Source: Arthrobacter sp. ERGS1:01 (lineage in GTDB: Bacteria; Actinomycetota; Actinomycetes; Actinomycetales; Micrococcaceae). From it: DNA of 64,000 bases. The position numbers and the translations under genes are program-made. Within the stretch, counting starts at the first letter, position 1. Each line of letters starts with the position of its first letter. A model generated the notes under the pieces. That model was not told the origin of the DNA and searched no databases. It worked only from the letters and a program-made list of their open reading frames with translations. The stretch is taken from positions 88,178-152,177 of the forward strand of contig NZ_CP012478.1 of assembly GCF_001281315.1 (NCBI RefSeq). The letters run 5' to 3'. This document shows, piece by piece, positions 23,893 through 63,861 of the stretch.

Positions 23893-23963
23893 CGGAGCAG
23901 GAGCGTCCCACTACCCAGGAACTGGGACGTCGGGTGGAACAACAGAAATGACAGCGCTTCGGG

Positions 23964-40330: not shown

Positions 40331-40351
40331 TTCGGGGGTTAGGATTGCTTC

Positions 40352-42130: not shown

Positions 42131-42206
42131 CATTACTCCTTGTTCGTACGGGGGCCGTCTCCCGGGGGTTGCCCGGATCCTTCAGAGGGCATGGTTCGTC
42201 TGGGCA

Positions 42207-42248
42207 ACGGTGGCGGGGGCCCGGTTATTAACCGGGCCCCGCCACCGT
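42207..42248. terminator. hairpin terminator of the amine oxidase gene
   Basis: A stem of about 19 bp (ACGGTGGCGGGGGCCCGGTT against AACCGGGCCCCGCCACCGT, with one bulged G) has a 3-nt loop. It lies 30 bp beyond the amine oxidase stop in the direction of its transcription. Confidence 0.8.
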
Positions 42249-42277
42249 AGCACCACGGGGCACGGTGCGGCCGCGGT

Positions 42278-44248
42278 TCAGCCTCCGCAGTGGCCGGCTG
42301 TGCCGCTGTCAGGACCGGCTTGGCTGGCCGTGCAGTGCCCCGGGGTTGACGTGGGCACATTCAGGGTCGGGTTCGCATCGAAGAAGCCGTGGGGCTTCAG
42401 GGTGAACCCGGTGGTGTCCACGGGCATGACTGGCCAGTCCTCCGGACGCGGGAAGTGGGTAAGACCGAAGGAATGCCAGACCACGATGTCCTGCCCGTTA
42501 ATGTCCCGGTCGGCCGCCACAAATGCGGGCAGGCCGGCGCCGCCGGGGTGCTGGTTGACGAAGTCGCCGGCCGCGTACCGCTCGTCCTCGGCGAACTGTG
42601 TGACCCACAGGTGATGCCGGGCAAACGTAGCCCGATCGGCTATGGAGGAGTCCTCGGCCATCGCCAGTGTGGGCTGTCCTTCCGGGTAAAGCGTGTAGCC
42701 AACCGGGTGGCCCAGGTGGTTCAGGGACGTCGGATTGCTAATGTGCCACACGCGCCCCAGGGCACCGTCCGCGTCTCGCACGGCCGCCGCTTCGGAGGCC
42801 AGCACCGTGCGCTTTTGGGTAAACGCGTTGCCGTGCGGGTTCCCCGGGCCTTTCGGCAGGCGCATCAGGTCCAGTTCCTCGACCCGATTGTTTTCGCCAT
42901 CGACCATCATGTCCAGGCGGGCGTTGAAGAGGTGCTGGTGGAATGGTGCCCCCAAGCCCGGGGCGATCTCCGAGGCGAAGGCATAGTTCTTGTGGGGCAG
43001 TGCCGCAGTGAAGACGATTCCGGTGGCTTTCGCCTCGAATTCGATGGTGCCGTCCAGGTAGAGGTACCAGTAGAACCCGTAGTCGTAGTTGCCCACGGTG
43101 GTAAAGAAGGAGACGACGAGCCGGCGATTGCGGCGCACTTCGTTGGAATTCGCCCATTCGTCGGTGTGCTTCCACAGGATGCCGGCATCCTCTTCGTGAA
43201 TGCAGATTCCGTTCTCGATTTCCCGCGGGTTGCCGAAGTCGTCGGCGACGATGGGGGAAAGGTAGGTGATGTCGCCGAGGCAGTCGCAGCCGAGTTTGAG
43301 CGAGTTCGCGTCTCGGCCCACCAGGTATTCTCCCGAGTCGAAGTAGTTCTGCCAGCTGCGGTACGGTGCCGGGTCCCCGTACGGGACCACCATTTCGGAG
43401 ATCGACGCGCGATGGATCAACGGCCGACGGTGACCGGCCTGGGTGTGGTGGATCTGGTGCAACACCAGCCCCTCGCGGGCATCGAAGCCCACGCGCAGGT
43501 CCCAGCCGAGCCACGAGAGGTGGTTGCCCTCCAGCGCGAAGCTGGGCCCTTCCGGCTGGGTGATTTCGATGGGTCTCAGGTCGGTGCGCAGTGTCCCGTG
43601 GATGGCGGCTTCGGTGTAGTTGCCGTTGACATTCGGGACAGGGACGGGGCCGTCGTCGATGAGGTGGTTTACCCGCCGGTTCTCGATGTCGACGAACGCG
43701 ACAAGCCCATCGATGGGGTGGGCCCAAGCGTGGTCGCCGGGGTGGTCCTGGCGGAATCCCAGCCCGCGCAGCAGGCGCTTGCCTGTTTCGTTCTCATACT
43801 CAAAAACCCCGGCGGACAGTGGGGCCACACGGACCTGAATCGGGGTGAGCCCTCGGCTGGCCAGGGCTGCCTGCCACTGCGGGTCGGCAGAGAGGATCTC
43901 CTCGATGATCTCGAACTCCTCCAACAGCACCGGCAGCTGACCATCATGGGAGGGGTCCAGTTCGCGGCTATGGATGACTGAGCTGTCATCGAGGGACACC
44001 GATACATCCAGTGAGCGGGATTGGGAGGCGTCCCAGAGCATCACCCGGACCCGGCGGCCCGGGGCCGGGGTGTCGGTGCCGTATAGCTCGGCCTTGGCCG
44101 GCTCCAGCAGGCCTAGGTACGCAAATCGAGTGGTGTCGGCGACCAACCCGGCCGCTTCCAGAATGCTGCGCGCAGCCAGGATTTCTTCTGCGGCCAGCTG
44201 GTCCAGCGGGTGCAGCTGCGTCATCGCAGCGTCGGTGGTGATGGTCAT
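42278..44248 (-). CDS. copper amine oxidase (TPQ-type), histamine/phenylethylamine oxidase class
   Basis: This 656-aa enzyme oxidises primary amines to aldehydes with release of ammonia and hydrogen peroxide. VGNYDYGF holds the Tyr388 that becomes topaquinone. [10 protein letters not shown] has the base Asp304, and copper ligands are His437 and His439 (FHQHLF) and His598 (LTHFP). These are each 6 residues beyond the Arthrobacter globiformis enzyme's D298, Y382, H431, H433 and H592. GAGGAAGTGCC precedes the ATG. The neighbouring dehydrogenase and the aspartase operon favour histamine over phenylethylamine. Confidence 0.93.
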
Positions 44249-46536: not shown

Positions 46537-46610
46537 ACTGAACACGAACGACACCACCCACGTGAAAAAGTCATCTACGGTACGCCTGGGTGGCGTCGTT
46601 CGTGTTCAGT
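46537..46610. repeat. inverted repeat with 24-bp arms
   Basis: Arms 46537-46560 and 46587-46610 (ACTGAACACGAACGAC with CCACCCA, one mismatch) face each other across 26 bp. It lies after the aldehyde dehydrogenase and before the permease. It may terminate or attenuate transcription between them. The surrounding 385 bp contain no other supported feature. Confidence 0.6.
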
Positions 46611-46773
46611 AGCCGCCACTGGCCCCCGGCGGTATATCGAAATATTCGATGCAGTCCATCAATTTCCAATGCTTTACGTGATGAATCTCACGCTTCTATG
46701 CTGAGGCTACCCCACAGCACCGCGTTCCTGACATCTGGTAAAGGAATCGGTAACTGTCCCCGAAAGGAACCCC

Positions 46774-48299
46774 ATGGCACAGTCAACAGGACCGACGGCA
46801 CTGGCCCAAGAGCAGAGCAAGCATCTGCAAAAGTCCCTCGGCCGACTGGACATCCTCCTCCTCGTGGTCGCGGCCGTCATCTCTATCGAGGTACTTGGAC
46901 AGGTCTCGGGTTTCGGCGTGGAAACGTTCACGTGGACCCTTGTCCTGGCCATCACGTTCCTGATCCCCTACGGGCTGATCTTCGCCGAGGTCGGCGGCAC
47001 GTTCACGGAGGAGGGCGGAGTATACGTATGGACGAAGATGGCCTACGGCCGAGTGGCAGCCGCCGTCACAGCGCTGTTCACCTGGGTGACGCAGCCCGTC
47101 TGGGTGGGCGGGGCCATGGCGTTCGTCGCCGTCGAGACATGGTCAGGCTATGTGACACCTATCGAAGCTGGCAGCCTTTCCGACTACCTGTTCAAGCTCG
47201 GCTTCATCTGGATCACCGTCGGATCGGCCGTCATCAGCCTCAAACGCGGCAAGTGGCTGCCAGCACTGGGTGCCATCCTAAAGATCGTGTTTCTGGCATT
47301 CTTTCTGGTCGTCACGGCTCTCTACGGTTTCCAGCACGGTTTCAACGGACTGAACCTGGCTTCCTTCTCGCCAACTCTGGCCGGCTTCCTGGGCGTGACC
47401 CCTTGCTGCTGTTCTCCTTCCTTGGCTTCGAATCGGGCAACAGCGCCGCCGGAGAGATGAAGAACCCGGGCCGTGACGTGCCCATCTCGGTGGCTCGCTC
47501 CGCCATCATCGCTGCGGCAAGCTACCTGCTGCCGATCCTGGCGATCTTGCTGGTAGTCCCGTTGGACAAGATCACTGGCATCAGTGGGCTCTTCGGAGCC
47601 GTGTCGACCGTGTACACGATTTTCGGCCCGGCGCAGCACGCTATGCTGGCCATCTCCGCTGTCGTGTTCTGCTTCGTGCTGGTCTCTCAAGGTGCGGCAT
47701 GGATGATCATCAGTGACCGCATGCAGGCGATGGCCGCCGCGGACGGATCGTTCTTCGGGGGTTTCTTCGGCCGGTTCCACCCAAAGCTGGGCACGCCCGT
47801 GCGCGTCAACACGCTCTCCGGCGTGGTCGCCACAGTGTTCATGCTGGTGGCCATGCAGCTGACCGGCAACAGCGGTGCACTGTTTCAAGTCGTGCTGACC
47901 ATTGCCATCTCGACCTACCTGCTCAGTTACCTGCTGGCCATCCCGGCCGCCGTGAAGCTGCGCACAAAGTTCCCGAACGAGCCCCGGCCGTTCAAGGTAC
48001 CAGTCTCTGATCGAGGCTTCTGGATCCTCGGCGCCATCTGCTTCATCTGGGTGCTGCTGGGTTCGTGGGTGGCCATCTTCCCCGGCACACTGGAGGCCGT
48101 GTTCGGGATCCAGTACAGTTTCGCCAACATCTGGGGCGTCTCGCAGGGAACGTTCGAACTGTTCACGGTCGGAACCCTACTGTCCATCCTCGCACTAGGG
48201 CTGGTTGGATACGCGTGTGGCAAGCCGGTCCGCGACCTGGTCAACGGGGATCTAGGCGCCGGGTCCCCCGTGGATGTGGCGGTCGACGCCGACGCATGA
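46774..48299 (+). pseudogene. APC-family amine/amino acid permease with one frameshift
   Basis: The first frame (46774-47402) encodes the N-terminal helices: VVAAVISIEVLGQVSGFG, EVGGTFTEEGGVYVW. At a run of C at 47399-47402 the frame changes, and a second frame continues with LLLFSFLGFESGNSAAGEMK through LGSWVAIFPGTLEAV to 48299. Restoring one C joins them into a normal ~508-aa, 12-helix transporter. A real loss of function or a homopolymer sequencing error are both possible. Its place suggests uptake of histamine or a related amine. Confidence 0.78.
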
Positions 48300-48435: not shown

Positions 48436-49885
48436 GGCTCTTCAGGATTGAGGGTGTAGAGGGCGTCGCGGCATTGTGAGTCGAAGTTCGTTGAGTTGTT
48501 CCAAAACTAGGTGAGGGCCTTAGGAGAGAATCGGATTGTCTAAGATCTGATCCCTCGTCCACAAGGCCCTCGTGAACAACGCTACCTTCCACAGCCCTGA
48601 CCTGACCACTTTCTGCCGCCTTGACGGCCTCGGCCTAGAAGTCACCGGGCAGTGTTTGTATCCAGACCGTGCGGTTCTTGCCTGCCGCGTGGTGGAACCG
48701 GATGAGTGGTGCAAGAAGTGCGGTTCCCAGGGTGTCCCGAGGGATACCGTGACGCGTCGGTTGGGTCATGAACCTTTCGGCTGGCGGCCCACCATTTTGC
48801 TGATCAGGCTCCGCCGTTACCGCTGCACCGACTGCGGTCACGTGTGGCGGCAAGACACCTCGAAAACTGCAGCGCCGCGGGCGAAGCTCTCCCGCCGTGG
48901 GCTGGCCTGGGCGCTGGAAGGCATCGTGGTCCAACACCTCACCATCGCCCGCGTCGCCGAAGGCCTGGGCGTTACCTGGAACGCCGCGAACAACGCCGTG
49001 CTGGCCGAAGGTAAGCGGATACTGATTGATGACCCCCACCGCTTCAACGGTGTGAAGGTCATTGGTGTTGACGAGCATGTCTGGCGGCACACCCGCCGTG
49101 GAGACAAATACGTCACCGTCATCATTGACCTGACCCCAATCCGCGACAAAACAGGCCCGTCCCGCCTGCTTGATATGGTCGAGGGCCGCTCGAAACAAGT
49201 CTTCGCCACCTGGTTGCATGAGCGCCCACAAGAGTGGCGGGACGGCATTGAAGTGGTGGCCATGGACGGCTTCACCGGGTTCAAAAGCGCCTCGACCGAG
49301 GAACTACCCGAGGCCGTCCCGGTCATGGACCCCTTCCACGTCATCCGCCTGGCCGGGGACGCACTGGATGTGTGCCGGCGCCGAGTTCAACAAGCAACAT
49401 TCGGGCACCGCGGCCGTGCCGGGGACCCGCTGTACAAAGCCAGGCGAACCCTTCACATCGGCGAGGGTCTGCTGATCGACAAGCAACGCCAACGCCTTCA
49501 AAACTTGTTCGACGATGATACACATGCTGAAGTGGAGGCCACCTGGGGCATCTATCAGCGCATGATCACGGCCTACCGGGACCCAGACCGGAACCAAGGC
49601 AAGAAGCTCATGCAGTCCGTGGTTGACTCCCTCTGCGCCGGCGTCTCGGCCGCACTCACGGAACTCAAAACCCTGGGACGAACCCTCAACCGCCGGGCAG
49701 CGGACGTGCTCGCCTATTTCGACAGACCCGGAACATCAAACGGTCCCGCCGAAGCGATCAATGGCCGCCTGGAACACCTCCGCGGATCAGCACTGGGCTT
49801 CCGCAACCTCACCAACTACATCGCCAGATCACTACTGGAATCCGGCGGGTTCAGACCGAAACTACACCCTCAATTCTGAAGAGCC
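48436..49885 (+). mobile_element. ISL3-family insertion sequence
   Basis: The terminal inverted repeats are 48436-48459 and 49862-49885: GGCTCTTCAG, one mismatch, ATTGAGGGTGTAG. They enclose one transposase gene. The unit is 1.45 kb, normal for ISL3 elements. No matching 8-bp target duplication is visible, so it may have moved by recombination or lost one side. It lies between the histamine-type and kynurenine-type gene blocks. Confidence 0.85.
48572..49879 (+). CDS. ISL3-family transposase
   Basis: This 435-aa transposase has an N-terminal zinc-finger-like part (CKKCGSQG, CTDCGHVW) and the DDE domain with VKVIGVDEHVWRH, VVAMDGFTGFKSAS and the closing Glu region in PAEAINGRLEHLRGSALGF. It fills the IS from end to end without frameshift, so it could be active. 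The stop lies just inside the right inverted repeat. Confidence 0.93.
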   Translation: MNNATFHSPDLTTFCRLDGLGLEVTGQCLYPDRAVLACRVVEPDEWCKKCGSQGVPRDTVTRRLGHEPFGWRPTILLIRLRRYRCTDCGHVWRQDTSKTAAPRAKLSRRGLAWALEGIVVQHLTIARVAEGLGVTWNAANNAVLAEGKRILIDDPHRFNGVKVIGVDEHVWRHTRRGDKYVTVIIDLTPIRDKTGPSRLLDMVEGRSKQVFATWLHERPQEWRDGIEVVAMDGFTGFKSASTEELPEAVPVMDPFHVIRLAGDALDVCRRRVQQATFGHRGRAGDPLYKARRTLHIGEGLLIDKQRQRLQNLFDDDTHAEVEATWGIYQRMITAYRDPDRNQGKKLMQSVVDSLCAGVSAALTELKTLGRTLNRRAADVLAYFDRPGTSNGPAEAINGRLEHLRGSALGFRNLTNYIARSLLESGGFRPKLHPQF

Positions 49886-50004: not shown

Positions 50005-51303
50005 TCAGGTAACGGCGTTGCGCGTCTTGAATTTGGCTTTGTCCCAGGCGCGGGTGTCGAGGATGTCGCGCAGGATCTCGACGGCATCCCAGACGTCCGC
50101 ATGGCCGAGGTAGAGCGGGGTGATGCCGAAGCGGAGGACCCCGGGCTCGCGGTAGTCGCCAATGACGCCGCCGGCGATCAGCGCGCTCATGACGGCGTAG
50201 CCGTCCGGGTGGCGGAAGCTGACGTGACTGCCTCGGATGGCATGGTCGCGCGGGGTGATTAGTTCCAGGGGGTGGCTGGCGCAGCGCTGTTTAACGAGGG
50301 CGATGAACAGGTCGGTCATGGCTAGCGACTTGGCCCGCAGGGCTGCGGGGTCGACGTCGAGCATGATGTCCAGCCCCGTCTCCACCATGGCTAGTGAGGT
50401 GATCGGCTGTGTCCCGCACAGGAAGCGGTTGATGGTCGACGCCGGTGCATAGGAATCCGCCATGTTGAATGGCTTCGCATGCGACCACCAGCCGGACAGC
50501 GGCTGCCAGAAGCGGTCCTGGTGGCGGGCGTTGACCCAGATGAAGGCCGGGGCGCCCGGACCGCCGTTGAGGTATTTGTAGGTGCAGCCGACGGCGTAGT
50601 CGGCATCGGCGCCGTTGAGGTCGACGGCGACTGCCCCGGCCGAGTGGGCCAGGTCCCAGATGGCCAGCGCGCCCACACCATGCGCCTTGGCCGTGACAGC
50701 GGTCATGTCCCACATGGCGCCTGTGCGGTAGTTGACGTGCGAGAGCGCCAGGACGGCCACCGAACCGTCCAGGGCCTGCTCCAGCGACAGGTCTTCGTCG
50801 ATAAGCCGCACCTCGTAACGGATGCCCGTCTCCTGCGCCACGGAGTTCAGGAAGTCCGTGATCCCCTCGGCGATGTAAATATCCGTGGGGAAGTTGTCGC
50901 GCTCCGTGACGATGACGCGTCGCTCCGGGTGATCCACCTGCTGGATGCGGATGGCGGACGCGAGGGCTTTGAACAGGTTCAGGCTGGTGGTGTCGGTGAC
51001 GACAGTTTCGCCGTCTCGACCGCCGATCAGTTTGGCGAGCTTGTCGCCCAGGCGCACCGGCAGCTCGAACCAGCCAGCCGTGTTCCAACTGCGGATCAGC
51101 CCCTCACCCCATTCGGTAGCGATGACCTGCTGTGCCCGTTCCAGGGCCCCGACCGGGCGCGGACCGAGGGAGTTGCCGTCAAGGTAGATCACGCCGTCGG
51201 GCAGGATGAAGCGTTCCTTGAAGGACGAGAGCGAATCAGTCGAATCGGCGGCAACGCAGGCTTCGCGCGTGCTGAGATCCAAGGGGTGGGTGAGGGTTTC
51301 CAT
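50005..51303 (-). CDS. kynU: kynureninase
   Basis: This 432-aa PLP enzyme cleaves L-kynurenine to anthranilate and alanine. [13 protein letters not shown] near residue 40 is the family's start motif. [14 protein letters not shown] and [15 protein letters not shown] hold the PLP-binding Asp and Lys. AGGAGAATTT precedes the ATG. It is divergent from an Lrp-type regulator and stands beside a gene block for CoA-dependent anthranilate breakdown, so it probably supplies that pathway. Confidence 0.95.
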
Positions 51304-51431
51304 AAATTCTCCTGTAGTACCGAAAGCTGTGCGTCTACGCGACGGGTATTGTGTGTTTCAGCTCACAGATTAGAATATGAATCGGGCAGCGTTCACCCCT
51401 TCCGAATAATCAATCAAGATTGGAGCCAGTA

Positions 51432-51947
51432 TTGAATCTCAATTCAGAAGTCATCCGTGCGCGCCCCCGTCAATCGAATCCGATTCACTTGGACGAGGCG
51501 GACATGGTGATCCTGCGCGAACTCTCCCAGGATGCCCGCACGCCCAATAACTTGTTGGCCAGCCGGGCCGGACTGGCTCCCTCAACCTGCTTGAATCGGG
51601 TGAGGGCGTTACGGCAGGCTGGGATCATTCGCGGCTTCCATGCCGACATTGATCTGGGCAGCTTGGGGCTGTACATTTTCGCGTTGATTTCCATCAACGT
51701 CCACGGCCAGGCCCGCAAAAACATGCTTGAGTTGGCCCGGGAGCTGCGGGACTTGCCGCAAACGCTCAATGTCTTCGTCCTGGGTGGAGAGCATGATCTG
51801 CTCTTGCACGTTGCTTGCGCCAACACAACAGAGCTCCGGGACTTCGTGGCCGCTAACCTCGGCAGCAATCAGGCTTTCGTCAGCACCCAGACCACCCTGA
51901 TTTTTGAGCACATGCAGCCTACCTCGCGAATTCAAAGCGCCCGCTGA
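51432..51947 (+). CDS. Lrp/AsnC-family regulator
   Basis: This regulator of about 171 aa has the AsnC-type helix-turn-helix (MVILRELSQDARTPNNLLA, then AGLAPSTCLNRVRALRQAG) and a C-terminal RAM/ACT-like effector domain (VFVLGGEHDLLLHVAC). The TTG at 51432 follows GGAG by 6 nt; a TTG 12 nt upstream is possible. Divergent from kynU, it probably senses kynurenine or a related amino acid and controls kynU, as Lrp-type KynR regulators do in other bacteria. Confidence 0.9.
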   Translation: MNLNSEVIRARPRQSNPIHLDEADMVILRELSQDARTPNNLLASRAGLAPSTCLNRVRALRQAGIIRGFHADIDLGSLGLYIFALISINVHGQARKNMLELARELRDLPQTLNVFVLGGEHDLLLHVACANTTELRDFVAANLGSNQAFVSTQTTLIFEHMQPTSRIQSAR

Positions 51948-52085
51948 GCGGTTGGTGGAGATCCTCGGGTGCATCTCTCATACCGGGGAGCCCTGGTTGA
52001 GCTAGGCCAGCTGGCGACCGGTTCTAGCCCCATTGGTCTGGCGTTTTGGGGACGAGCGGCATCAGAGCGACATAGAATTGGTCCT

Positions 52086-52544
52086 ATGAGCGAACACCTC
52101 TTTGATGCGGGCCCCGTCCAACCTTGGGCAGGTGCCTCAGCTGCCGTTGTTGAGCACACGGTGGAGTGGGTTGACACGGATGCGTCGGGGCACCAACACA
52201 ACTCCGCGATCATCCGTTGGGTCGAATCTGCCGAGGCTGAGCTGTTTCGCCAACTTGCCCTGCCGGACTATTTCCCATCCGCTCCGCGCGTGCACCAGTC
52301 GGTGAATTTCCGCGCCAAGGTCTGGTTCGGTCAGCGCGTCACCACCACGATCTGGGTGCAGAAACTGGGTGTTTCCTCTGTGACCTTTGGCTTCGAGGTC
52401 AGGGTCAAGCCCATGGGGGAGCGCCCGGGAGGGCTCGCGGCCGACGGCATTGTTGTTGCCGCGCATGTCCCCGCCGGCGGAGACTCCTCGGCACCCTGGT
52501 CGGAGCACATTCGTGGCGCGATCACGGAGGCGGTGCCGCAGTGA
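52086..52544 (+). CDS. hotdog-fold acyl-CoA thioesterase (4HBT type)
   Basis: This 152-aa protein has WVDTDASGHQHNSAIIRW, where the Asp and His/Asn are the active-site pattern of 4-hydroxybenzoyl-CoA thioesterases. VNFRAKVWFGQRV follows in the second strand set. The GTG of the next gene overlaps its stop. It may release a hydroxylated aryl acid from its CoA thioester in the same pathway. The start at 52086 is chosen because upstream in-frame residues have no similarity. Confidence 0.88.
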   Translation: MSEHLFDAGPVQPWAGASAAVVEHTVEWVDTDASGHQHNSAIIRWVESAEAELFRQLALPDYFPSAPRVHQSVNFRAKVWFGQRVTTTIWVQKLGVSSVTFGFEVRVKPMGERPGGLAADGIVVAAHVPAGGDSSAPWSEHIRGAITEAVPQ

Positions 52545-53398
52545 GCGCTCTTGAGCCGGGCATCCGGCATCATCAATTGATCATCACCCTCTATGGCCTG
52601 TACTGTCGGGGCGTCGGCCAGGCAATGCCCGTTTCTGTGCTGATCGACATGCTCGGCGACCTTGGGTATGACGGGGCCGGGGTGCGCTCGGCGGTGTCAC
52701 GACTGAAAGCCAAAGGTGTCCTGCGGAGCGTGAAGGATGGCAATGTCGCCCAGTACGAGCTCTCCTCGGCTGTTGCTGATTTGTTCGCCGAAGGTGACGA
52801 GCGGATCTTTTCTGACGGAACCCCGAATGTCACCCATGGTTGGGCGCTGGCCATTTTCTCGGTTCCCGAGACCTTGCGTAGTCGCCGCCATCAACTGCGC
52901 ACGGTACTGTCTGGGTTCGGCTTTGGGTCGATGGCTTCGGGTGTCGGAGTCGCCCCGGAATCCGCTCTGGAGCGGACCAAAAAGCGGCTTCAAGCACTGG
53001 AGCTTGATCAGTTCGTCGACTTTTTTCGGGGCGACCACGTAGCTGAAGGTGATTTGCGCGCCAAAGTTGCCCAATGGTGGGACTTGGCGGCGTTGGATGC
53101 GCAGTTCGTTGAGTTCCTGAGCCTATACAGCGCAACGGCCGACCAATGGGTCGCCCGGATCGGCACCGATCCTGAACGTGCACTTGAGAAATCGACGCCG
53201 GAGCTGAGGCGGGAAGCCTTCCGCTCCTACATTCCCATGTTGACCGTGTGGCGGCGGTTTCCCTACAAGGACCCGGGCCTTGCTTCGGAGTACCTCCCTC
53301 AAGGCTGGAAGGGGCAGGATGCCAGAAAGGTATTCCTGGAGATTCACCGCCTGCTCGCACCCCTTGCCGAGGCCCATGCCCGGTCCTTGATGGCCTAA
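52541..53398 (+). CDS. PaaX-family transcriptional repressor
   Basis: This 285-aa protein has the PaaX layout: an N-terminal winged helix (LIITLYGLYCRGVGQAMPV, VRSAVSRLKAKGVL) and a C-terminal domain with VTHGWALAIFSVPETLR. PaaX proteins bind aryl-CoA inducers such as phenylacetyl-CoA. The pathway here generates aryl-CoA thioesters, so it is the likely sensor of anthraniloyl-CoA or a hydroxylated derivative. It starts with GTG overlapping the thioesterase stop. Confidence 0.88.
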   Translation: MSALEPGIRHHQLIITLYGLYCRGVGQAMPVSVLIDMLGDLGYDGAGVRSAVSRLKAKGVLRSVKDGNVAQYELSSAVADLFAEGDERIFSDGTPNVTHGWALAIFSVPETLRSRRHQLRTVLSGFGFGSMASGVGVAPESALERTKKRLQALELDQFVDFFRGDHVAEGDLRAKVAQWWDLAALDAQFVEFLSLYSATADQWVARIGTDPERALEKSTPELRREAFRSYIPMLTVWRRFPYKDPGLASEYLPQGWKGQDARKVFLEIHRLLAPLAEAHARSLMA

Positions 53399-53419
53399 AT
53401 ACCCGTCATTGTGTCGGCT

Positions 53420-53812
53420 CTATTGGATGACGGCAATGCCCTGGATTTCAATCAGGGCTTCTTTCTGCCATAGTCGGCTGACGCCGATCCCTGCCATGGC
53501 TGGGTACTCTGAGCCTGCCATTTCGCGCCACAGTCGGCCAATTTCGCGGCCGTTGGCCATGTAGTCGTCGACGTCCGTGAGGTAGATCGTCACGCTGACC
53601 AGGTCTTGTGGCTGGCCCCCCGCTTCAATCAGGGTGGTCAGCACGTTGCTCAGTGCCTGTTCGAACTGGGCCACGATGCCGCCCGGAACGATCTGCATAT
53701 CCGCATTCAATGCCGTTTGGCCGCCAAGGTACACAGTGTTGCCGGCCAGGATGCCGTGGGCGTATCCCGAGGGCTTGGGGAGGGCGGACGGGTTGATGGT
53801 CTTGTTGGGCAT
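53420..53812 (-). CDS. RidA-family deaminase
   Basis: This 130-aa protein starts MPNKTINPSALPKPSGYAHG and has LGGQTALNADMQIVPGG and the ending with ALIEIQGIAVIQ, standard RidA features. AAAGGAAAAATG precedes the ATG at 53812. It is divergent from the FAH gene and sits inside a pathway that would generate amino-muconate-like or imine products, where RidA could hasten loss of ammonia. It differs clearly from the RidA at 38413. Confidence 0.88.
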   Translation of the reverse strand: MPNKTINPSALPKPSGYAHGILAGNTVYLGGQTALNADMQIVPGGIVAQFEQALSNVLTTLIEAGGQPQDLVSVTIYLTDVDDYMANGREIGRLWREMAGSEYPAMAGIGVSRLWQKEALIEIQGIAVIQ

Positions 53813-53850
53813 CATTTTTCCTTTAGTTGGGAAGTCCGTCTCAAAAATAC

Positions 53851-53878
53851 TGTGACATGACTCTCATTTGGTGTTACA
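53851..53878. promoter_or_regulatory. candidate operator of the catabolic operon
   Basis: TGTGAC (53851-53856) faces GTTACA (53873-53878) with one mismatch across 16 bp, in the divergent region between ridA and the FAH gene. The PaaX-type repressor is the likely binder. The half-sites are short, so support is modest. Confidence 0.35.
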
Positions 53879-53937
53879 TTGAGCATATTCGACGATCGTA
53901 AATAAGTCGACATATACCTTTGAGGGGAACGGCACCC

Positions 53938-54798
53938 ATGAAACTTGCCACTTTGCGCACCGGTGGATCAGGCACCACGGCGGCCCTGCTGCTGGAGGAT
54001 GAGGGCTATCTGCCGCTGCCGGCATCCAATGTGGGGAAGCTGTTGGCTCGCCCAGACTGGAAGGCCCAGCTATCCGCCGCAGCGGCAGGGGAGCATTTCG
54101 GCGTCGTCTCCCTGGGGGAGGCTGATCTGGCGCCGCTGCTGCCCACGGCAGGAAAAGTTATCTGCTGCGGCGTGAATTATCTCGACCACATCCAGGAGAT
54201 GGGACGCGAGGTACCTGACTACCCGACGCTTTTCGCCAAGTATGCGGACACGTTGATTGGTGCCAGGGACAGCATTGAGGTCCAGGGCAGTGAGCGTGTG
54301 GACTGGGAAGCCGAACTTGCCGTCGTCGTTGGGGCACCCCTTGCTCGGGCAGATGAGGAAGAAGCAACTGCGGCGATCGCCGGATACACCGTTGCCAACG
54401 ACGTATCCATGCGGGACTGGCAAAACCGAACGCTGCAATGGTTCCAGGGAAAGGCGTTCGACGCCACGACACCCTTGGGCCCGGTTCTGGTCACGGCGGA
54501 TGAATTCCCCTCCAGCCATGGCTTTGAAGTTAGCAGCCACGTCAACGGCGAACTCGTCCAAAACGGCAACACCGCGGAACTGGTTTTCGGCCCTGCCAAG
54601 CTGCTGTCCTATATCTCCCAATTCACCACACTGCGACCCGGAGACGTAGTCCTGACCGGAACCCCCGGTGGCGTTGGTATGGGCATGAAGCCGCCGCGCT
54701 TCTTGGCCGACGGGGACGTCCTGCTCACCGAAATCGCAGGAATCGGCCAACTGGAGAACCAGGTCCGAATCCACGCTGTCGCCAACACCACCCACTAG
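53938..54798 (+). CDS. FAH-family hydrolase
   Basis: This 286-aa protein has VICCGVNYLDHIQEMG, metal ligands in VDWEAELAVVVGAP, YTVANDVSMRDWQ and the C-terminal VVLTGTPGGVGMG. It is a second, different FAH protein from that at 13956. In fumarylpyruvate or related ring-cleavage pathways such enzymes split acylpyruvates. With the cupin encoded next it is a good candidate for cleaving the ring-fission product. The ATG at 53938 is the one supported by the family N-terminus. Confidence 0.88.
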   Translation: MKLATLRTGGSGTTAALLLEDEGYLPLPASNVGKLLARPDWKAQLSAAAAGEHFGVVSLGEADLAPLLPTAGKVICCGVNYLDHIQEMGREVPDYPTLFAKYADTLIGARDSIEVQGSERVDWEAELAVVVGAPLARADEEEATAAIAGYTVANDVSMRDWQNRTLQWFQGKAFDATTPLGPVLVTADEFPSSHGFEVSSHVNGELVQNGNTAELVFGPAKLLSYISQFTTLRPGDVVLTGTPGGVGMGMKPPRFLADGDVLLTEIAGIGQLENQVRIHAVANTTH

Positions 54799-54829
54799 AC
54801 ACCCGATACATCCAATAGGAGTGAAAATC

Positions 54830-55309
54830 ATGAGCGAAACCATTGCCTACCAAACCGAGGGCGATAACTCCATCTACGCAAACGCCGCCGGCGCCGTGGT
54901 GCCCGTGGTAACCCGGGCCGGGGAAGAAGACACGAACACCGCCCAGTCCGGCGACTGTATCCGTGTTTCTGGGGTGTCCATCCAGCACACCCCGGCAACG
55001 AAGATCTGGTTCGGCCAGGTCTCCAACACCCCCGGCTACCGCTCGCTGCCGCACCACCACGGCGAGGCAGAAACCGGCGGGTACGTGCTGCGTGGCCATG
55101 GCCGCATCTACTTCGGCGAGAACTACTCAGAATTCCTGGACATGAAGGCCGGCGACTGGGTGTTCGTGCCACCCTTCATGCCCCACGTTGAGGCGAACAT
55201 GTCCGTCACCGAGGACCTCGTCTGGCTCACCGCGCGCACGCCGGAAAACCTGGTGATCAACCTTGAGGATGTTCCAGACGAAACTCTGGCCGACTACCGG
55301 AGGGCCTAG
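54830..55309 (+). CDS. single-domain cupin, putative ring-cleavage dioxygenase
   Basis: This 159-aa protein has a complete cupin metal site. Motif 1 is PGYRSLPHHHGEAETGGYVL with His-His and Glu ligands; motif 2 is GDWVFVPPFMPHVEAN with the last His. TAGGAGTGAAAATC precedes the ATG at 54830. Gentisate-type dioxygenases are larger two-cupin proteins, so ring cleavage here would be by a small enzyme. The alternative is an isomerase or hydrolase role. The FAH gene upstream and hydroxylase downstream support an intermediate step. Confidence 0.72.
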   Translation: MSETIAYQTEGDNSIYANAAGAVVPVVTRAGEEDTNTAQSGDCIRVSGVSIQHTPATKIWFGQVSNTPGYRSLPHHHGEAETGGYVLRGHGRIYFGENYSEFLDMKAGDWVFVPPFMPHVEANMSVTEDLVWLTARTPENLVINLEDVPDETLADYRRA

Positions 55310-55314
55310 GGCCT

Positions 55315-56196
55315 GTGAACAGCGAAACAGCGATCCTGGAAGCCGGAACCTCGGAGACTTTCCTCAGAGCCATCGAACTCACCTCGGTGGCGCCGCAGGT
55401 CCATGATCTGGCTTTCGAAGCCACCACACAGTACGTGCCCTGGCCCAAGTCCTACGGTGGGGACATGGTCGCCCAGTGCGCCGCGGCCATGATGCGCTCC
55501 GTGGAATCAGACCGCAAGCTGCATTCCATGCACAGCTATTTCATGCGTCCCGTCGACATTGGTGCCGCAGTCCGCTACGAAGTGGAAATCCTGCGCGACG
55601 GGCGCGGCTACTCGACCCGCAGTGTCAGGGGCTATCAGAACGGCAAAACTGTGTTCGCGGCCATGGGTTCCTTCCACGTCCCGGAAGCCGGGTCTGAATA
55701 CCAGCCTGCCATGCCGGCTGCGGTGGATCCGGAGTCTCTGCGCAGTGCGGCAGAAGTGCTCGATGGTGTCCCGGGTCCGGCGGCCGACTATTGGGCCAAC
55801 GGACGAAGCTTCGACATGCGACACATCCCCGGTCCCGTGTACGTCCAGGTTGAGGGCGAGGCAACGCCAACGCAGGCCATCTGGGTGAAGGCCTTTGACA
55901 GTTTGCCCGACGACCCGGATCTGCACCGCACGGCGTTGGCCTACGTGTGCGACTACACCATCCTGGAACCGCTTCTGCGGGTCAACGGGCTCAGCTGGAC
56001 ATCGCCCGGACTTGTCACCGCAAGCCTTGACCATTCCATCTGGTTCCACCGCGACGGCCGGGCCGACGACTGGGTGCTCTACGCCCAGGAAGCCGTTTCC
56101 GGCCAACACAACAGGGGCCTAGCCATGGGCCGGTTCTTCTCCCGGAACGGCACGCTCCTGGCTACGGTCGCCCAAGAGGGCATGGTCCGAGCCTAG
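55315..56196 (+). CDS. TesB-type acyl-CoA thioesterase
   Basis: This 293-aa double-hotdog protein begins with GTG and contains LHSMHSYFMRPVDIG and SLDHSIWFHRDGRADDW, where the Asp of SLDHSIWFH is the catalytic residue of TesB/acyl-CoA thioesterase II. It ends with RFFSRNGTLLATVAQEG. Together with the 4HBT protein it gives the cluster two unrelated thioesterases, suggesting that CoA is removed from aryl intermediates. It starts 5 nt after the cupin stop. Confidence 0.88.
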   Translation: MNSETAILEAGTSETFLRAIELTSVAPQVHDLAFEATTQYVPWPKSYGGDMVAQCAAAMMRSVESDRKLHSMHSYFMRPVDIGAAVRYEVEILRDGRGYSTRSVRGYQNGKTVFAAMGSFHVPEAGSEYQPAMPAAVDPESLRSAAEVLDGVPGPAADYWANGRSFDMRHIPGPVYVQVEGEATPTQAIWVKAFDSLPDDPDLHRTALAYVCDYTILEPLLRVNGLSWTSPGLVTASLDHSIWFHRDGRADDWVLYAQEAVSGQHNRGLAMGRFFSRNGTLLATVAQEGMVRA

Positions 56197-56250
56197 AACC
56201 GACCACCGGTCCTGTCCCACACCGCGTATTGACTTTGAAAGGAAATGGCC

Positions 56251-57954
56251 ATGACATTGACGACATCGGCCCATGTGGACTCATTCACCCGCGATCATCT
56301 TCCACCCGCCGACTCCTGGCCCATCTTGGAGTTCACCCTTCCGGAGCTGCAATACCCGGAGCGGATGAATGCTGCTACGGTGCTGATCGATGACGCCGTC
56401 GCCCTATTTGGCCCCGACCGTCCGGCCCTCCATACACCGGATGGCACCACCTGGACTTACGGCCAGCTGCTTCGACACGCCAACCAAGTGGCCCAAGTAC
56501 TGACAGAAGACTTCGGCGTCGTGCCCGGAAACAGGGTGCTGCTACGCGGCCCCAACAACCCGTGGCTCGTCGCCGCCTGGCTGGGCGTCCTCAAAGCTGG
56601 CGCCGTGGTGGTCACCACGATGCCCATGCTCCGAGCCTCAGAGATTTCCATACTGATCGGGCTCACCCAGCCGGCCGTGGCCATCACCGACCACCGCTTT
56701 GTCGAGGATCTTCACGCGGCTGCCGGGCAGACGCTGCCGTTCATGACCTACGGAGCGGACCACGCCGGTGACCTCACCGCCCGCTGTGCCGCCAAGAGCG
56801 GGACGTTCACCAACGTCGATACGGCAGCCGACGACGTCGCCCTTCTTGGCCCGACCTCCGGCACCACAGGCACGCCGAAGGTCACCATGCACTTCCATCG
56901 GGATATTCTCGCGAACGCGGACACGTTCGCCCGGTACCTGCTGGAACCCACTCCGGATGATGTCTTTGCCGGATCACCGCCGTTGGCCTTCACCTTTGGC
57001 CTGGGCGGACTGGTCGTCTTCCCCTTGCGGTTCGGCGCCTCATCACTGCTGACGGAACGTGCCGCACCCCTAGAATTGGCCGAAGCGGCGGCTGCAGCCA
57101 ATGCGTCCATTCTGTTCACGGCCCCTACTGCTTACCGGGCCATCCTCAAGGAAGGCCGCGGCGATCTGCTGAGCCGCCTGCGTATCGCAGTTTCCGCCGG
57201 CGAGCACCTGCCCAAGGAGACCTGGCAGCACATCTTTGACGAAACCGGGGTGAAACTGGTCAATGGTATCGGGGCCACCGAAATGCTGCACGTCTTCATC
57301 TCGGCAGCGGGGGAGGACATCCACCCCGGCGCCACCGGTGTGGCCGTCCCTGGCTACCGGGCCCTGATCCTGGATGACCACGGTGCTGAGGCTGCGCCGA
57401 ATGAAGCCGGCAGACTGGCAGTGATCGGCCCCACCGGTTGTCGGTACCTCGATGACCCCCGCCAAGCCAACTACGTCCACGACGGTTGGAACGTCACCGG
57501 GGACACGTTCTTGCGAGACGACGACGGCTACTTCGTGTACCAGGCACGCTCGGACAACATGATCGTCTCTTCCGGTTACAACATTGGCGCCCCGGAAGTG
57601 GAAGCTGCCATCAACGAGCACCCCGACGTCGTCGAAAACGCCGTCGTAGCCCGTCCTGACGAGGAACGCGGCTCCGTGGTGTGCGCCTTCGTGGTCCTGC
57701 GAGACGGAGTAGACGGCGACGCTGCCAAGCGCAAGGAAATCCAGGACTTCGTCAAAGCCACCATCGCTCCCTATAAATACCCCCGTGACGTGCGGTTCGT
57801 GACCGAACTGCCGCACAACCCCAGCGGAAAACTGCAGCACTTCCGGCTGCGTGAAGCCATCGCCAAGGAACGCGAATTCCAAAGTGGTGCTTCCTCCGTT
57901 GATTCCGCACAGGCCCCTGCGATGGCCGATGCCTTCACCCAAAACTCTCGATAG
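56251..57954 (+). CDS. aryl-CoA ligase of the 2-aminobenzoate-CoA ligase type
   Basis: This 567-aa AMP-forming ligase activates an aromatic acid with ATP and CoA. TSGTTGTPKVTMHFHRD is the P-loop-like motif with the HFHRD tail typical of 2-aminobenzoate-CoA ligases. GWNVTGDTF and YPRDVRFVTELPHNPSGKLQ (with the catalytic Lys) complete the set. The ATG at 56251 has GAAAGGA upstream at good spacing. With kynureninase nearby, anthranilate is the likely substrate; salicylate is the main alternative. Confidence 0.9.
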   Translation: MTLTTSAHVDSFTRDHLPPADSWPILEFTLPELQYPERMNAATVLIDDAVALFGPDRPALHTPDGTTWTYGQLLRHANQVAQVLTEDFGVVPGNRVLLRGPNNPWLVAAWLGVLKAGAVVVTTMPMLRASEISILIGLTQPAVAITDHRFVEDLHAAAGQTLPFMTYGADHAGDLTARCAAKSGTFTNVDTAADDVALLGPTSGTTGTPKVTMHFHRDILANADTFARYLLEPTPDDVFAGSPPLAFTFGLGGLVVFPLRFGASSLLTERAAPLELAEAAAAANASILFTAPTAYRAILKEGRGDLLSRLRIAVSAGEHLPKETWQHIFDETGVKLVNGIGATEMLHVFISAAGEDIHPGATGVAVPGYRALILDDHGAEAAPNEAGRLAVIGPTGCRYLDDPRQANYVHDGWNVTGDTFLRDDDGYFVYQARSDNMIVSSGYNIGAPEVEAAINEHPDVVENAVVARPDEERGSVVCAFVVLRDGVDGDAAKRKEIQDFVKATIAPYKYPRDVRFVTELPHNPSGKLQHFRLREAIAKEREFQSGASSVDSAQAPAMADAFTQNSR

Positions 57955-57966
57955 GACCGAAAAACC

Positions 57967-60363
57967 ATGAAGATCGCAATTGTTGGCGGCGGCCCCGGTG
58001 GGCTGTACTTTGCCGCATTGATGAAGCAGCTGGACCCCTCCCACCAGATCACCCTGTGGGAGCGCAACGCCGCCTCCGACACTTTCGGATTCGGTGTCGT
58101 CTTCTCCGATGAAACCCTCGGCGGCATCGGCAACGCAGACCCCGTCGTGGCCGACTACATGAGCAGGCGATTCGCACGCTGGAGCGACATCGACATCCAC
58201 TTCAAGGAGCAGATGACCACGGTCGGCGGGCAGGGCTTTGCCGCGATGAGCCGCAAGGAACTGCTGCAACTGCTCCAGCGGCGCACGCTGGAACTCGGTG
58301 TGGACGTCCGCTTCAGCACCATGGCACCCCCGGTGGAGGACCTGGCCTCCGGCTACGATTTGGTGCTCGCAGCCGACGGTGTCAACTCCCAAATCCGGGC
58401 CAAATACGCTGACACCTTCAAGCCGTCCCTGGATGTGCGCGGCAACAAGTACATGTGGCTGGGAACCGACAAGGTCTTTGAGGCGTTCAAGTTCTTCGTC
58501 AAGGAGACCCAATGGGGTGTCATGCAGATCCACGGCTACCCCTACTCCGATGAGGGTTCGACATTCATCGCCGAAATGTCCCCGGAGGTCTGGCACGCCG
58601 CCGGCTTCGACGAGACGGCTAACGATGTCTTCGCCCCCGGCGTCTCCGATGAAAAAGCAGTAGCGAAGATCCGTGACATTTTCGCTGAGGAACTAGCCGG
58701 GCACCAGGTGCTGACCAACAACTCGAAATGGCTGAACTTCACCACCGTGCGCAACGAAAACTGGCGCAATGACAACATCGTGCTGCTCGGCGATGCTGCC
58801 CACACCGCCCACTTCTCCATCGGCTCAGGGACCAAACTGGCCATGGAAGATGCCCTTGCCTTGGCCGCCTGCCTGCACGAACACGCCAGCGTGGATGCAG
58901 CCCTGTCCGCCTACGAGGCCGAGCGACGCCCCGTGGTCGAATCCACTCAGCGTGCCGCCCAGGCCTCATTGGAATGGTTCGAGAACATCGGTCAGTACAA
59001 GGACCAGGATCCCGCCCAGTTCTGCTTCAACCTGCTCACCCGCAGTCGCCGCATCACTTATGACAACCTGAAGTTGCGCGACCCCGACTTCGCCCATCAC
59101 GTGGATGCGAACTTTGCCGCCTCCCAGGGATTGGACCAGGTCGCCCCAGCCATGTTCCAGCCGTATCAGATCGGAAGCCTGGAACTGAAGAACAGGATCG
59201 TCGTCTCACCCATGGACATGTACTCCGCGGTCGACGGCGTCCCGGGCAATTTCCACCTAGTCCACCTCGGCAGCAAGGCCATGGGCGGGGCCGGGCTGGT
59301 CATGACGGAAATGGTGTGTGTCTCCGCCGAGGGCCGCATCACCCCCGGCTGCAGCGGCCTGTACACCGACGCCCAAGGTGACAGCTGGGCGGAGATCGTG
59401 GACTTCGTCCACACCCAGTCCACCGCGAAGATTGGCGCCCAAATCGGACACTCCGGCCGCAAGGGCTCCACGAAGCTGATGTGGGAGGGCATTGACGAGC
59501 CCTTGGCCGAGGGCAACTGGTCGGTCACCGGCCCGTCCGCCGTCCCCTATGGCCCCGCCAGCCAGGTCCCCCGGGAAATCACCCGTTCCGAAATGGATGA
59601 GGTCCGCGAACAGTTCGTTGCTGCGGCCCGACGCGCTGACGTTGCCGGCTTCGACCTCCTGGAAGTGCACGCCGCACACGGCTACCTGCTCTCCTCGTTC
59701 CTCTCGCCGCTGGCCAACCAGCGCACCGACGAATACGGCGGCAACCTGGAGAACCGGCTGCGCTACCCGCTGGAAGTGTTCGACGCCGTTCGTGCTGAGT
59801 GGCCGACACACAAGCCGCTGACCGTGCGCATCTCCGCCACAGACTGGTGCGAACGCGGCAACACGGCTGATGACGCCGTGGAGATCGCCCGCGCGTTCGT
59901 GACCCATGGCGCCGCCGGCATTGACGTCTCCACCGGCCAGGTCGCCAAGGAGGAAAAGCCTGCCTATGGGCGCAGCTACCAGACTCCCTTTGCGGACAGG
60001 ATCCGCCAGGAGGTGGCCGCCCCGGCCGGTGCCGCCGTGATCGCCGTCGGCGCCATCTCCTCCTACGACGACGTCAACTCGATCCTGCTGGCAGGGCGAG
60101 CGGACCTGGTGGCCTTGGGCCGTACGCACCTGTACGACCCGCAGTGGACCCTGCACGCCGCCGCCGAACAGGACTTCAAGGGCGACTCCGCCGCCTGGGC
60201 CCTGCCGTTCCAAGCCGGCAACCGCAAGCCCCCGAGCGCCCGGACCGACGCCGTCCGCCCCCGGCTGTCCCTGCTCAAAGAACCGGAGACCGATAGCACG
60301 CCGGTGCATGTGCGCTGGACCCCGTCTAAGGCCGCTGAGGAGGTCCTTGCCCGTAGGAATTAG
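57967..60363 (+). CDS. fused aryl-CoA monooxygenase/OYE-type reductase
   Basis: This 798-aa two-domain flavoprotein has an N-terminal FAD monooxygenase (IAIVGGGPGGLYFAALM, and GDAAHTAHFSIGSGTKLAME) and, from about residue 400, an old-yellow-enzyme reductase (YQIGSLELKNRIVVSPM, EVHAAHGYLLSSFLSP). This fusion is the hallmark of 2-aminobenzoyl-CoA monooxygenase/reductase and salicylyl-CoA 5-hydroxylase. It starts 12 nt after the ligase stop, so it likely hydroxylates the ligase product. Neighbours favour anthraniloyl-CoA. Confidence 0.93.
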   Translation: MKIAIVGGGPGGLYFAALMKQLDPSHQITLWERNAASDTFGFGVVFSDETLGGIGNADPVVADYMSRRFARWSDIDIHFKEQMTTVGGQGFAAMSRKELLQLLQRRTLELGVDVRFSTMAPPVEDLASGYDLVLAADGVNSQIRAKYADTFKPSLDVRGNKYMWLGTDKVFEAFKFFVKETQWGVMQIHGYPYSDEGSTFIAEMSPEVWHAAGFDETANDVFAPGVSDEKAVAKIRDIFAEELAGHQVLTNNSKWLNFTTVRNENWRNDNIVLLGDAAHTAHFSIGSGTKLAMEDALALAACLHEHASVDAALSAYEAERRPVVESTQRAAQASLEWFENIGQYKDQDPAQFCFNLLTRSRRITYDNLKLRDPDFAHHVDANFAASQGLDQVAPAMFQPYQIGSLELKNRIVVSPMDMYSAVDGVPGNFHLVHLGSKAMGGAGLVMTEMVCVSAEGRITPGCSGLYTDAQGDSWAEIVDFVHTQSTAKIGAQIGHSGRKGSTKLMWEGIDEPLAEGNWSVTGPSAVPYGPASQVPREITRSEMDEVREQFVAAARRADVAGFDLLEVHAAHGYLLSSFLSPLANQRTDEYGGNLENRLRYPLEVFDAVRAEWPTHKPLTVRISATDWCERGNTADDAVEIARAFVTHGAAGIDVSTGQVAKEEKPAYGRSYQTPFADRIRQEVAAPAGAAVIAVGAISSYDDVNSILLAGRADLVALGRTHLYDPQWTLHAAAEQDFKGDSAAWALPFQAGNRKPPSARTDAVRPRLSLLKEPETDSTPVHVRWTPSKAAEEVLARRN

Positions 60364-62883: not shown

Positions 62884-63861
62884 ATGAAGAACAATGCTCC
62901 CGGGTACCAACCCTCTGGCGCAAGCTCATGGCGGCCGCAGTGCTGAGCACCGTGATAGCCGGCACAGCAGCGTGCGGAGGACCGGCACAGACGGCGTCCA
63001 CTCCGGCATCAAACGGCAACGCTCCCTTGGCCGCCTGGTGCCGGCCAGCATCAGAGCCAAGGGCACGATCGTCGTTGGAACCCAACCCGATTTTGAACCG
63101 GCCGATTTCACACCCATCGGCGAAAACGGTGTCAAGGGTTTCAATATTGACCTCATGGATGCGATGGCCGCCAAACTGGGGTTGAAAGTCACCTACCAGA
63201 AAGTGCCATTCGACCAACTACTCGTCGGTGTACAGACCGGCAAATTCGACGCTTCGATTGCCGGCATGACGGACCGCAAGCAACGCCAGGCAAATGTTGA
63301 CTTTGTCGACTACCAGGTTGCCGGAACGGTCTTCATGGTGGCCAAAGGTAACCCAAAGAACATCACCGGAGACGCCAATGGTGGCTGCGGTATTAAGATC
63401 GGCGGCGTTAAAGGCAACGATGACGAGCGACTGGTCGGCCTGATGGCAGCGGCGTGCACCGCGGAGGGCAAGCCGGCCCCGGAGTTGGTCACGTTCCCCA
63501 CAGGCAGCGACAAGAACCTGGCGCTCACCTCCGTGTTGATGCCATTTTCTGGCCTGATATGGCGGTCTCGGTGATCCAACGCGAGACCGGTGGAAAGCTT
63601 GAATCCGTGCCCGTGAATTTCGAGCCGAAGGTTTACCTCGGGATGATCTTCGACAAGAAGAATGCTCAGCTGCGCGATGCGTTCCTGAAGGCAACGGAGG
63701 CAATGCATGCCGACGGCAGCTACGACGCAATCCTGAAGAAGTGGGACGTCGCAGTCATCAACCTGCCCAAGCCGGCGTCAATCTGGCCACGTCATAATCC
63801 ATCCGGAGGGCGGGCGGCTATACAAACCAGCAAGCCCTCCGGATTCCCAATCGCAAAATAG
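62884..63861 (+). pseudogene. ABC amino-acid-type solute-binding lipoprotein, frameshifted
   Basis: The product is spread over three frames. The lipoprotein signal MAAAVLSTVIAGTAACGG precedes a shift near 63025. The main domain then has GTIVVGTQPDFEPADFTPIG and FNIDLMDAMAAKLGLKVTY, and a second shift near 63530 leads to VDAIFWPDMAVSVIQ and the end at 63861. It is a family 3 (HisJ-like) binding protein. A third shift lies between the ATG at 62884 and the signal. It probably served an importer for the decayed amidohydrolase substrate. Confidence 0.75.

Follow-up and report, generated by a model that had tools for sequence, protein, structure and literature searches.

Arthrobacter sp. ERGS1:01 carries, at positions 50005-60363 of the 64,000-nucleotide stretch analysed here (the window), ten genes that include a CoA ligase, a fused monooxygenase/reductase, two thioesterases, a Rid protein, a small cupin, a hydrolase of the FAH superfamily and a kynureninase. 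We read this locus, at a probability of roughly 0.5, as an anthranilate module of the aerobic anthraniloyl-CoA type with a lower pathway unlike that of Azoarcus. The module is real and conserved; for what follows the fused enzyme, we infer the chemistry. How would such a set of proteins open the ring? In the route proposed here, the ligase would convert anthranilate to anthraniloyl-CoA (step 1), which the fused enzyme would turn into a non-aromatic enamine-CoA (step 2). Rid would hydrolyse the enamine to 2,5-dioxocyclohexanecarboxyl-CoA, still a thioester (step 3), and the TesB and/or the 4HBT thioesterase would free the acid, before or after the cupin step (step 4). With O2, the cupin would break the C1-C2 bond of the cyclic beta-keto compound to give a succinylpyruvate-type 2,4-dioxo acid (4,6-dioxoheptanedioate; step 5), an acylpyruvate that the FAH hydrolase would split into succinate and pyruvate (step 6). 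The atoms balance: C7H8O4 + O2 = C7H8O6, which with H2O gives succinate + pyruvate.

These steps differ in strength. The first two, by analogy with characterised relatives, are very probable, and deamination of the enamine-CoA by Rid is somewhat favoured. That succinate and pyruvate are reached by an O2-dependent route is proposed tentatively. More tentative again is the whole chain, in which the ring would become non-aromatic on CoA, an Arg-less Rid would act on a thioester enamine, the cupin on a cyclic beta-keto acid and an acylpyruvase on the product, with at least three exchanges with beta-oxidation opening. If true, this adds a ring-opening reaction for anthranilate with a non-aromatic cyclic beta-keto acid as cupin substrate, and it ties Arg-less Rid proteins to a specific intermediate, a first substrate for them. 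In these strains the module may complete the degradation of tryptophan, of quinaldine and perhaps of quorum signals.

The upper half of the pathway is already known. The CoA ligase and the fused monooxygenase/reductase also occur in Azoarcus evansii, in its aerobic 2-aminobenzoyl-CoA pathway (Schuhle 2001, as summarised in PMC4539516 and PMC3534580), whereas the window cluster is without enoyl-CoA hydratase and acyl-CoA dehydrogenase and has a cupin, FAH and TesB in their place. What becomes of the ring past the fused enzyme is an admitted gap; in a passage of PMC9007349, the GapMind authors state that they omitted tryptophan degradation via the fused enzyme 'due to a lack of knowledge'. Among open-licence papers we found no proposal of a cupin/FAH lower pathway, and one may have been published elsewhere.

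Genes of the module

Profile matches (PF, TIGR and NF models) and the positions of the open reading frames (ORFs) identify the genes as follows.

50005..51303, minus strand: kynureninase, scoring at equivalog level (TIGR01814, 320.8 bits, above the cut-off of 246.4)
51420..51947, plus strand: Lrp/AsnC-type regulator, divergent from the kynureninase (PF13404, PF01037)
51969..52544, plus strand: 4HBT_2 hotdog thioesterase (PF13279, 7.4e-8; homologue in 55 of 78 cupin-selected loci, described below)
52541..53398, plus strand: PaaX-like repressor (PaaX_M, PaaX_C, PaaX)
53420..53815, minus strand: Rid-family protein with Met replacing the catalytic Arg (PF01042)
53920..54798, plus strand: FAH-superfamily C-C hydrolase (FAA_hydrolase), proposed acylpyruvase (PF01557, 1.8e-70)
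54821..55309, plus strand: single-domain metal cupin (Cupin_2) of 162 aa, proposed ring-opening dioxygenase (PF07883)
55315..56196, plus strand: TesB-type acyl-CoA thioesterase (TIGR00189, 207.5 bits, below the cut-off of 292.85; in 78 of 78 loci)
56245..57954, plus strand: anthranilate-type CoA ligase, AMP-binding (benzoate-CoA ligase model TIGR02262, 321.7 bits, below the cut-off of 375.25)
57967..60363, plus strand: fused FAD monooxygenase/OYE reductase of the 2-aminobenzoyl-CoA monooxygenase/reductase type (NF006101, 1222.9 bits, above 1078; PF01494 and PF00724)

All ten ORFs are confirmed, among them two regulators (Lrp/AsnC and PaaX-like) that the original prediction, made from the letters of the window, had not listed; its inventory and placement of the other genes are borne out by ORFs and profiles. 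FAH, cupin, TesB, ligase and fused enzyme form a tight plus-strand operon, its genes lying 22, 5, 48 and 12 bases apart. Rid is divergent from it, and the regulators, the 4HBT_2 thioesterase and the kynureninase lie on its left side. Translation of FAH likely starts at the ATG at 53938, and the PaaX-like repressor probably senses a CoA ester, a ligand that we infer.

A recurring gene set

Is this grouping a local accident? Named genome contigs scanned with the cupin yielded 168 relatives; the best 80, retained for the comparison, correspond to 78 distinct loci. As these were chosen by their cupin, they show linkage and not frequency. Cupin, TesB, ligase and fused enzyme are together in 78/78, Rid is present in 77 and FAH in 75, and the beta-oxidation pair of enoyl-CoA hydratase and acyl-CoA dehydrogenase (ECH/ACAD) in none (0/78). 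No beta-oxidation enzyme appears among the profiles of the ten window genes either, in agreement with what had been predicted for the cluster. When split matches of one gene are collapsed, the order Rid (minus strand), FAH, cupin, TesB, ligase, fused enzyme is kept in 69 of the 78 loci. Because the same genes recur in the same order in so many loci, their grouping is far beyond chance. The nine exceptions are loci with tandem cupins and ligases (L032, L035, L061), loci with FAH nearby on the opposite strand (L102, L103), loci without FAH (L062, L063, L071) and a short contig that begins at FAH (L105).

The closest named loci belong to Arthrobacter and its kin, P. aurescens TC1 carries locus L056, and the module is found in dozens of Micrococcaceae and related contigs; a close cupin occurs in 6 of 57 relatives searched, the window's own genome not counted. 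The same gene set and order are found on pAL1, the quinaldine plasmid of Arthrobacter sp. Rue61a (NC_009453; L016), where they correspond to its 'lower pathway' genes, with the difference that no kynureninase lies in that stretch. In the main text of PMC3534580, which describes Rue61a, a search for the word 'cupin' gave no match (FAH and Rid were not searched there). A Tsukamurella plasmid carries the gene set as well. On a plasmid of Rhodococcus erythropolis BG43 the module lies beside aqd genes (alkylquinolone breakdown), and on one of R. qingshengii N9T-4 it lies beside tryptophan 2,3-dioxygenase (TDO) and a kynureninase-like gene. An alphaproteobacterial variant has fused enzyme, SDR, thioesterase, Rid, cupin and FAH.

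Two loci have a close cupin and FAH with no full-length fused enzyme in the stretch: L018 (8989-14637), beside a TRAP transporter, SDRs and a cycloisomerase, and L022 (5762-9390), beside MaoC and CoA-ester lyase genes. The cupin and FAH may have roles in other pathways as well.

Two gene sets beside the fused enzyme

Clusters in which the fused enzyme is accompanied by enoyl-CoA hydratase and acyl-CoA dehydrogenase occur in Paracoccus, Ruegeria, Thalassospira, Phyllobacterium, Haladaptatus, Limnohabitans, Comamonas, Sulfitobacter and Ensifer. Do the two sets of genes ever meet? For a draw within the window's phylum, 396 genomes were searched with the fused enzyme and 40 loci of fused-length matches were taken (G320 and fragments left out). 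Two have cupin and FAH, neither with ECH/ACAD, and 30 have hydratase and/or dehydrogenase; one has FAH only, seven, some of them short contigs, have none of the genes sought, and cupin together with hydratase/dehydrogenase occurs in 0 of the 40. A wider tally covers the 138 loci with an unbroken fused-enzyme match (the match in L029 is split): 89 have the cupin, 41 the beta-oxidation genes, 8 neither and 0 both. Cupin and ECH/ACAD are thus mutually exclusive among these loci, 77 of the 89 cupin-type ones coming from the cupin-selected set. A cupin in Ruegeria L139 was considered as a counter-example with both sets and rejected, being hardly alike (21.9 bits). In Ensifer, a beta-oxidation-type cluster (L211, 8001-18220) ends in a gene annotated as 3-oxoadipyl-CoA thiolase, which hints at the last part of the Azoarcus-type route.

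In a 42-row tree of the fused enzyme, whose rows are our selection from the fused-enzyme loci, the type of lower pathway changes 3 times (5-95% bootstrap range 3-3), and a tree with a single change is found in 0 of 200 bootstrap trees. L212, which has neither gene pair, was labelled beta-type in this tree; with it dropped for a 41-row test there are still 3 changes, and a single cupin clade is rejected (p-AU 0.000445). Three groups are cupin-type: Rhizobium, the roseobacters, and an actinobacterial group whose sister is formed by beta-type genomes of the same class. A quick tree of 61 rows agrees on the actinobacterial cupin group, given as one change with support 98, and splits three alphaproteobacterial rows into two changes. 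The three changes, which the tree leaves without direction, may be one gain and two losses.

The simplest reading of these comparisons is that cupin plus FAH and hydratase plus dehydrogenase would be alternative ring-opening routes on the same intermediate. Both probably act on the same reduced product, because they are never seen together and have been exchanged three times in the tree, and it is quite likely that cupin and FAH stand in for beta-oxidation ring opening. Could the pathway instead be the ordinary Azoarcus type, with its beta-oxidation enzymes encoded elsewhere and the cupin and FAH serving another substrate or detoxification? Ligase, fused enzyme and Rid all belong to that pathway, and Actinobacteria generally have many acyl-CoA enzymes elsewhere in the genome. 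The constant company of cupin, TesB, ligase and fused enzyme, the exclusion and the exchanges just described, and the position of the cupin, 22 and 5 bases from its operon neighbours, make this very improbable.

Probable steps from anthranilate to a non-aromatic ring

Activation of anthranilate to anthraniloyl-CoA and its oxidation at the CoA-ester level, both part of the original prediction, hold up well. The best solved relative of the ligase is 4wv3, 'Anthranilate-CoA ligase' (7.7e-65), and it is 78% identical to the pAL1 ligase; both Rue61a ligases were reported active on anthranilate in E. coli extracts (PMC3534580). In the fused enzyme, matched by its profile as listed, both active sites are intact. 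The OYE His/His/Tyr, the loop Tyr and the Arg are kept in 89/89 cupin-type loci, so the reductase half is under selection; His/His/Tyr is kept in 33-36 of 41 beta-type loci. In Rue61a, C7H7NO3-CoA and C7H8O4-CoA were reported in anthranilate-grown cells only, and the authors suggested that the latter might be cyclohexanedione-carboxyl-CoA (PMC3534580). The deaminated product, 2,5-dioxocyclohexanecarboxylic acid, likewise has the formula C7H8O4.

The salicylyl-CoA/gentisate route, whose name NCBI's fused-enzyme model bears, shares a CoA ligase and CoA-level 5-hydroxylation with the window cluster; it differs in that no bicupin gentisate 1,2-dioxygenase or maleylpyruvate isomerase is recognised among the ten genes. 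Single-domain hydroxylase matches (11 loci) were tried as a gentisate contrast and dropped: the neighbours of the 5 scanned were without gentisate genes, being tyrosinase, transporters, regulators and other enzymes.

A Rid protein without its arginine

A Rid match is present in 88/89 cupin-type and 37/41 beta-type loci; the 12 of 138 loci without one include short contigs and Comamonas L207. The Azoarcus evansii cluster presumably has a Rid protein as well. As it is found with both lower pathways, Rid belongs most simply to a shared enamine intermediate. The window protein shares the family and the conserved Glu with RidA enamine/imine deaminases, and differs from them in having Met where solved Rid proteins have the Arg of PAR. 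That Arg is found in none of the 126 Rids from these loci, which have Met (106), Leu (11), Ile (3), Val (2) or, once each, Thr, Ser, Pro and a gap; the one with Pro (L212) is probably a different Rid. Of four other alignable Rid proteins of the genome, two have the Arg and two do not. In RidA-type proteins this Arg is described as essential, binding the substrate carboxylate, and Arg-less Rid proteins were called functionally unknown in 2015 (both PMC4433059). The loss would make sense with a thioester as substrate, since a thioester lacks the free carboxylate. In other aromatic pathways, Rid-like proteins are reported to act as enamine deaminases (PMC6449761).

The window has a second Rid gene without the Arg (38434-38763), in an amine-oxidation neighbourhood (38434-44248) that includes an AGAO-like copper amine oxidase, an FAD oxidoreductase and a LysR regulator.

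Does the pathway pass through free 5-hydroxyanthranilate?

The cupin, FAH and Rid had been predicted to act downstream, and such roles are likely; they had been predicted to act on released 5-hydroxyanthranilate (5-HAA), which fits poorly with the intact OYE half. In that scheme, the fused enzyme would only hydroxylate, a thioesterase would free 5-HAA, the cupin would cleave it in a gentisate-like manner and Rid and FAH would finish. Two thioesterases are present, anthranilate-grown Rue61a contains hydroxyanthraniloyl-CoA and co-metabolises 5-HAA (PMC3534580), and the older claim closest to it is a 5-HAA route in Nocardia opaca (Cain 1968, cited in PMC4539516). Single-domain cupins that cleave rings exist, such as 5-nitrosalicylate 1,2-dioxygenase, which is reported inactive on 5-HAA (PMC10306065). 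Why, then, is a 5-HAA step unlikely? Rue61a grew on anthranilate and did not grow on 5-HAA, 3-hydroxyanthranilate (both co-metabolised), catechol or gentisate (PMC3534580), and Rid is common to the beta-oxidation clusters too. By our own chemistry, cleavage of 5-HAA at C1-C2 would give an amide and therefore need an amidase; no amidase or maleylpyruvate isomerase was recognised within the module. Profiles of gentisate dioxygenase and of 3-hydroxyanthranilate dioxygenase (PF06052) do not match the cupin. A genome search for PF06052 gave no match, its control being silent as well, and a gentisate-dioxygenase-like gene found elsewhere in the genome scores 276 bits, below the cut-off of 442. We regard release of 5-HAA as improbable, either as main intermediate or as part of the full scheme.

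Proposed ring opening by the cupin and the FAH hydrolase

The likely ligands of the cupin, H78, H80 and H122, are kept in 74/74 aligned homologues and E84 in 65/74; from this alignment they are likely the metal ligands, with E84 as a possible addition. A first structural model was poor (pLDDT 48.4) and was discarded; the one retained (pLDDT 88.8) has a plain general cupin fold. The proposed precedent is Dke1, the acetylacetone dioxygenase of Acinetobacter johnsonii, described as a 153-residue single-domain cupin with three His that cleaves beta-dicarbonyls with O2 (PMC4019311). The window cupin, which has no significant sequence match to it, shares the small single cupin domain with His-x-His and a third His, and beta-dicarbonyl chemistry is what is proposed for it here. 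In the 50 rows displayed from each fold search Dke1 does not appear, an absence that rules nothing out. Were the cupin to act on 2,5-dioxocyclohexanecarboxylate as Dke1 acts on its substrates, the product would be succinylpyruvate, an acylpyruvate, which FAH would then split.

FAH shares its family and catalytic residues with FAHD1 and the 2,4-diketo-acid hydrolases, its own substrate being deduced by analogy. Residues that we take to be the lid His/Glu, the metal Glu/Glu/Asp and the Lys are kept in 85 or 86 of 86 cases, the remainder being a gap. Among profiles FAH scores best with a 2,4-dioxo-acid hydrolase, below the cut-off, as with every listed curated NCBIfam model; its best solved relative is the predicted hydratase 6j57, and the 2,4-diketo-acid hydrolase 8gsr and the acylpyruvase FAHD1 are also among its relatives.

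Is O2 needed at all? After Rid, FAH or a thioesterase might open the beta-keto ring by hydrolysis to 4-oxopimelate or its CoA ester, leaving the cupin as an isomerase or accessory lyase. FAH-superfamily enzymes are generally known for retro-Claisen hydrolysis of 1,3-dicarbonyls, and the fold neighbours of the cupin include isomerases, dehydratases and a cyclase. By our chemistry, however, 4-oxopimelate needs further enzymes absent from the module, whereas the O2 route ends in central metabolites, and 4 of 90 cupin-type loci have a cupin with no FAH match. Hydrolytic opening is therefore unlikely, if a little less so than passage through 5-HAA.

Several points weigh against the O2-dependent route. 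To our knowledge there is no assay of module proteins beyond step 2. By sequence, neither Dke1 nor any other solved protein is significantly related to the cupin (none below E 0.001; best 0.027 and 0.0088), and the cupin's fold neighbours at nearly tied Z include lyases, dehydratases, a cyclase and isomerases; with neighbours of so many chemistries, the fold by itself does not establish oxygenase activity. The bond cut by Dke1 is reported to depend on the substituents (PMC4019311), and the route assumes that the ring is opened and the thioester carbon is not lost. Arg-less Rid4-7 proteins are described as having shown no deaminase activity so far (PMC8113886). In Rue61a, as reported in PMC3534580, C7H8O4-CoA was assigned by formula only, hydroxyanthraniloyl-CoA was also present and 5-HAA was co-metabolised, its uptake being uncontrolled in the growth comparison. 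A pAL1-free mutant still grew on anthranilate, presumably through chromosomal paralogues (same source), so the pAL1 copy is not shown to be needed. The gene set itself also varies: the ligase is absent from the stretch in 3 of 4 alphaproteobacterial cupin-type loci (L019, L020, L192), the FAH match is missing in L062, L063, L071 and L206, and FAH matches occur in the cupin-less loci L170, L172 and L212, in L172 also with ECH/ACAD. With cupin loci lacking FAH and FAH loci lacking the cupin, FAH is not strictly tied to the cupin.

L062, L063 and L071 each have a stretch weakly like an alpha/beta hydrolase, as does L103, which has FAH. In the FAH-less loci this is perhaps a substitute C-C hydrolase.

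Sources of anthranilate

The kynureninase of the window is real and likely supplies anthranilate, as predicted, and to that extent the idea of kynurenine breakdown stands. As a frame for the whole module it is too narrow. Among 90 cupin-type loci, a kynureninase is matched in two, the window and L023 (a 37%-identical kynureninase-like gene beside TDO), with a weak 29% match in L081, and kynurenine as defining input is rejected. Kynureninase also lies beside some beta-type clusters (L140, L177, L209, L211). It is an add-on outside the recurring module, and the kynurenine link is local. To judge from neighbouring genes or from reports, anthranilate would come from quinaldine, alkylquinolone or tryptophan, depending on the strain. 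No match to anthranilate 1,2-dioxygenase was found in the genome. Away from the module, at G000:C1:353450-354694 and C1:422926-423720, the genome encodes a further kynureninase (71% identical) and a TDO.

Genomic surroundings

In a genome of 4.94 Mb and three contigs, the window forms the right end of contig C2. Its segment 50002-64000, up to the contig end, is repeated on contig C1 of the genome (G000:C1) from 734375 on: over 13.1 kb compared, the copies are 99.4% identical with 8 mismatches and 65 gap openings. This is either a duplication or one DNA assembled twice with indel errors; in the C1 copy the FAH, cupin, TesB and PaaX matches are broken or weak. An ISL3-family transposase (48572-49879) adjoins the left start of the repeated stretch. 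Further left, an amino acid permease gene (46590-48299) is apparently split across two frames (46774-47460 and an overlapping frame), perhaps by an indel, and near the contig end an SBP_bac_3 solute-binding protein gene (62894-63861) seems to run on in another frame. A Tn3-family transposase lies at 20603-23911.

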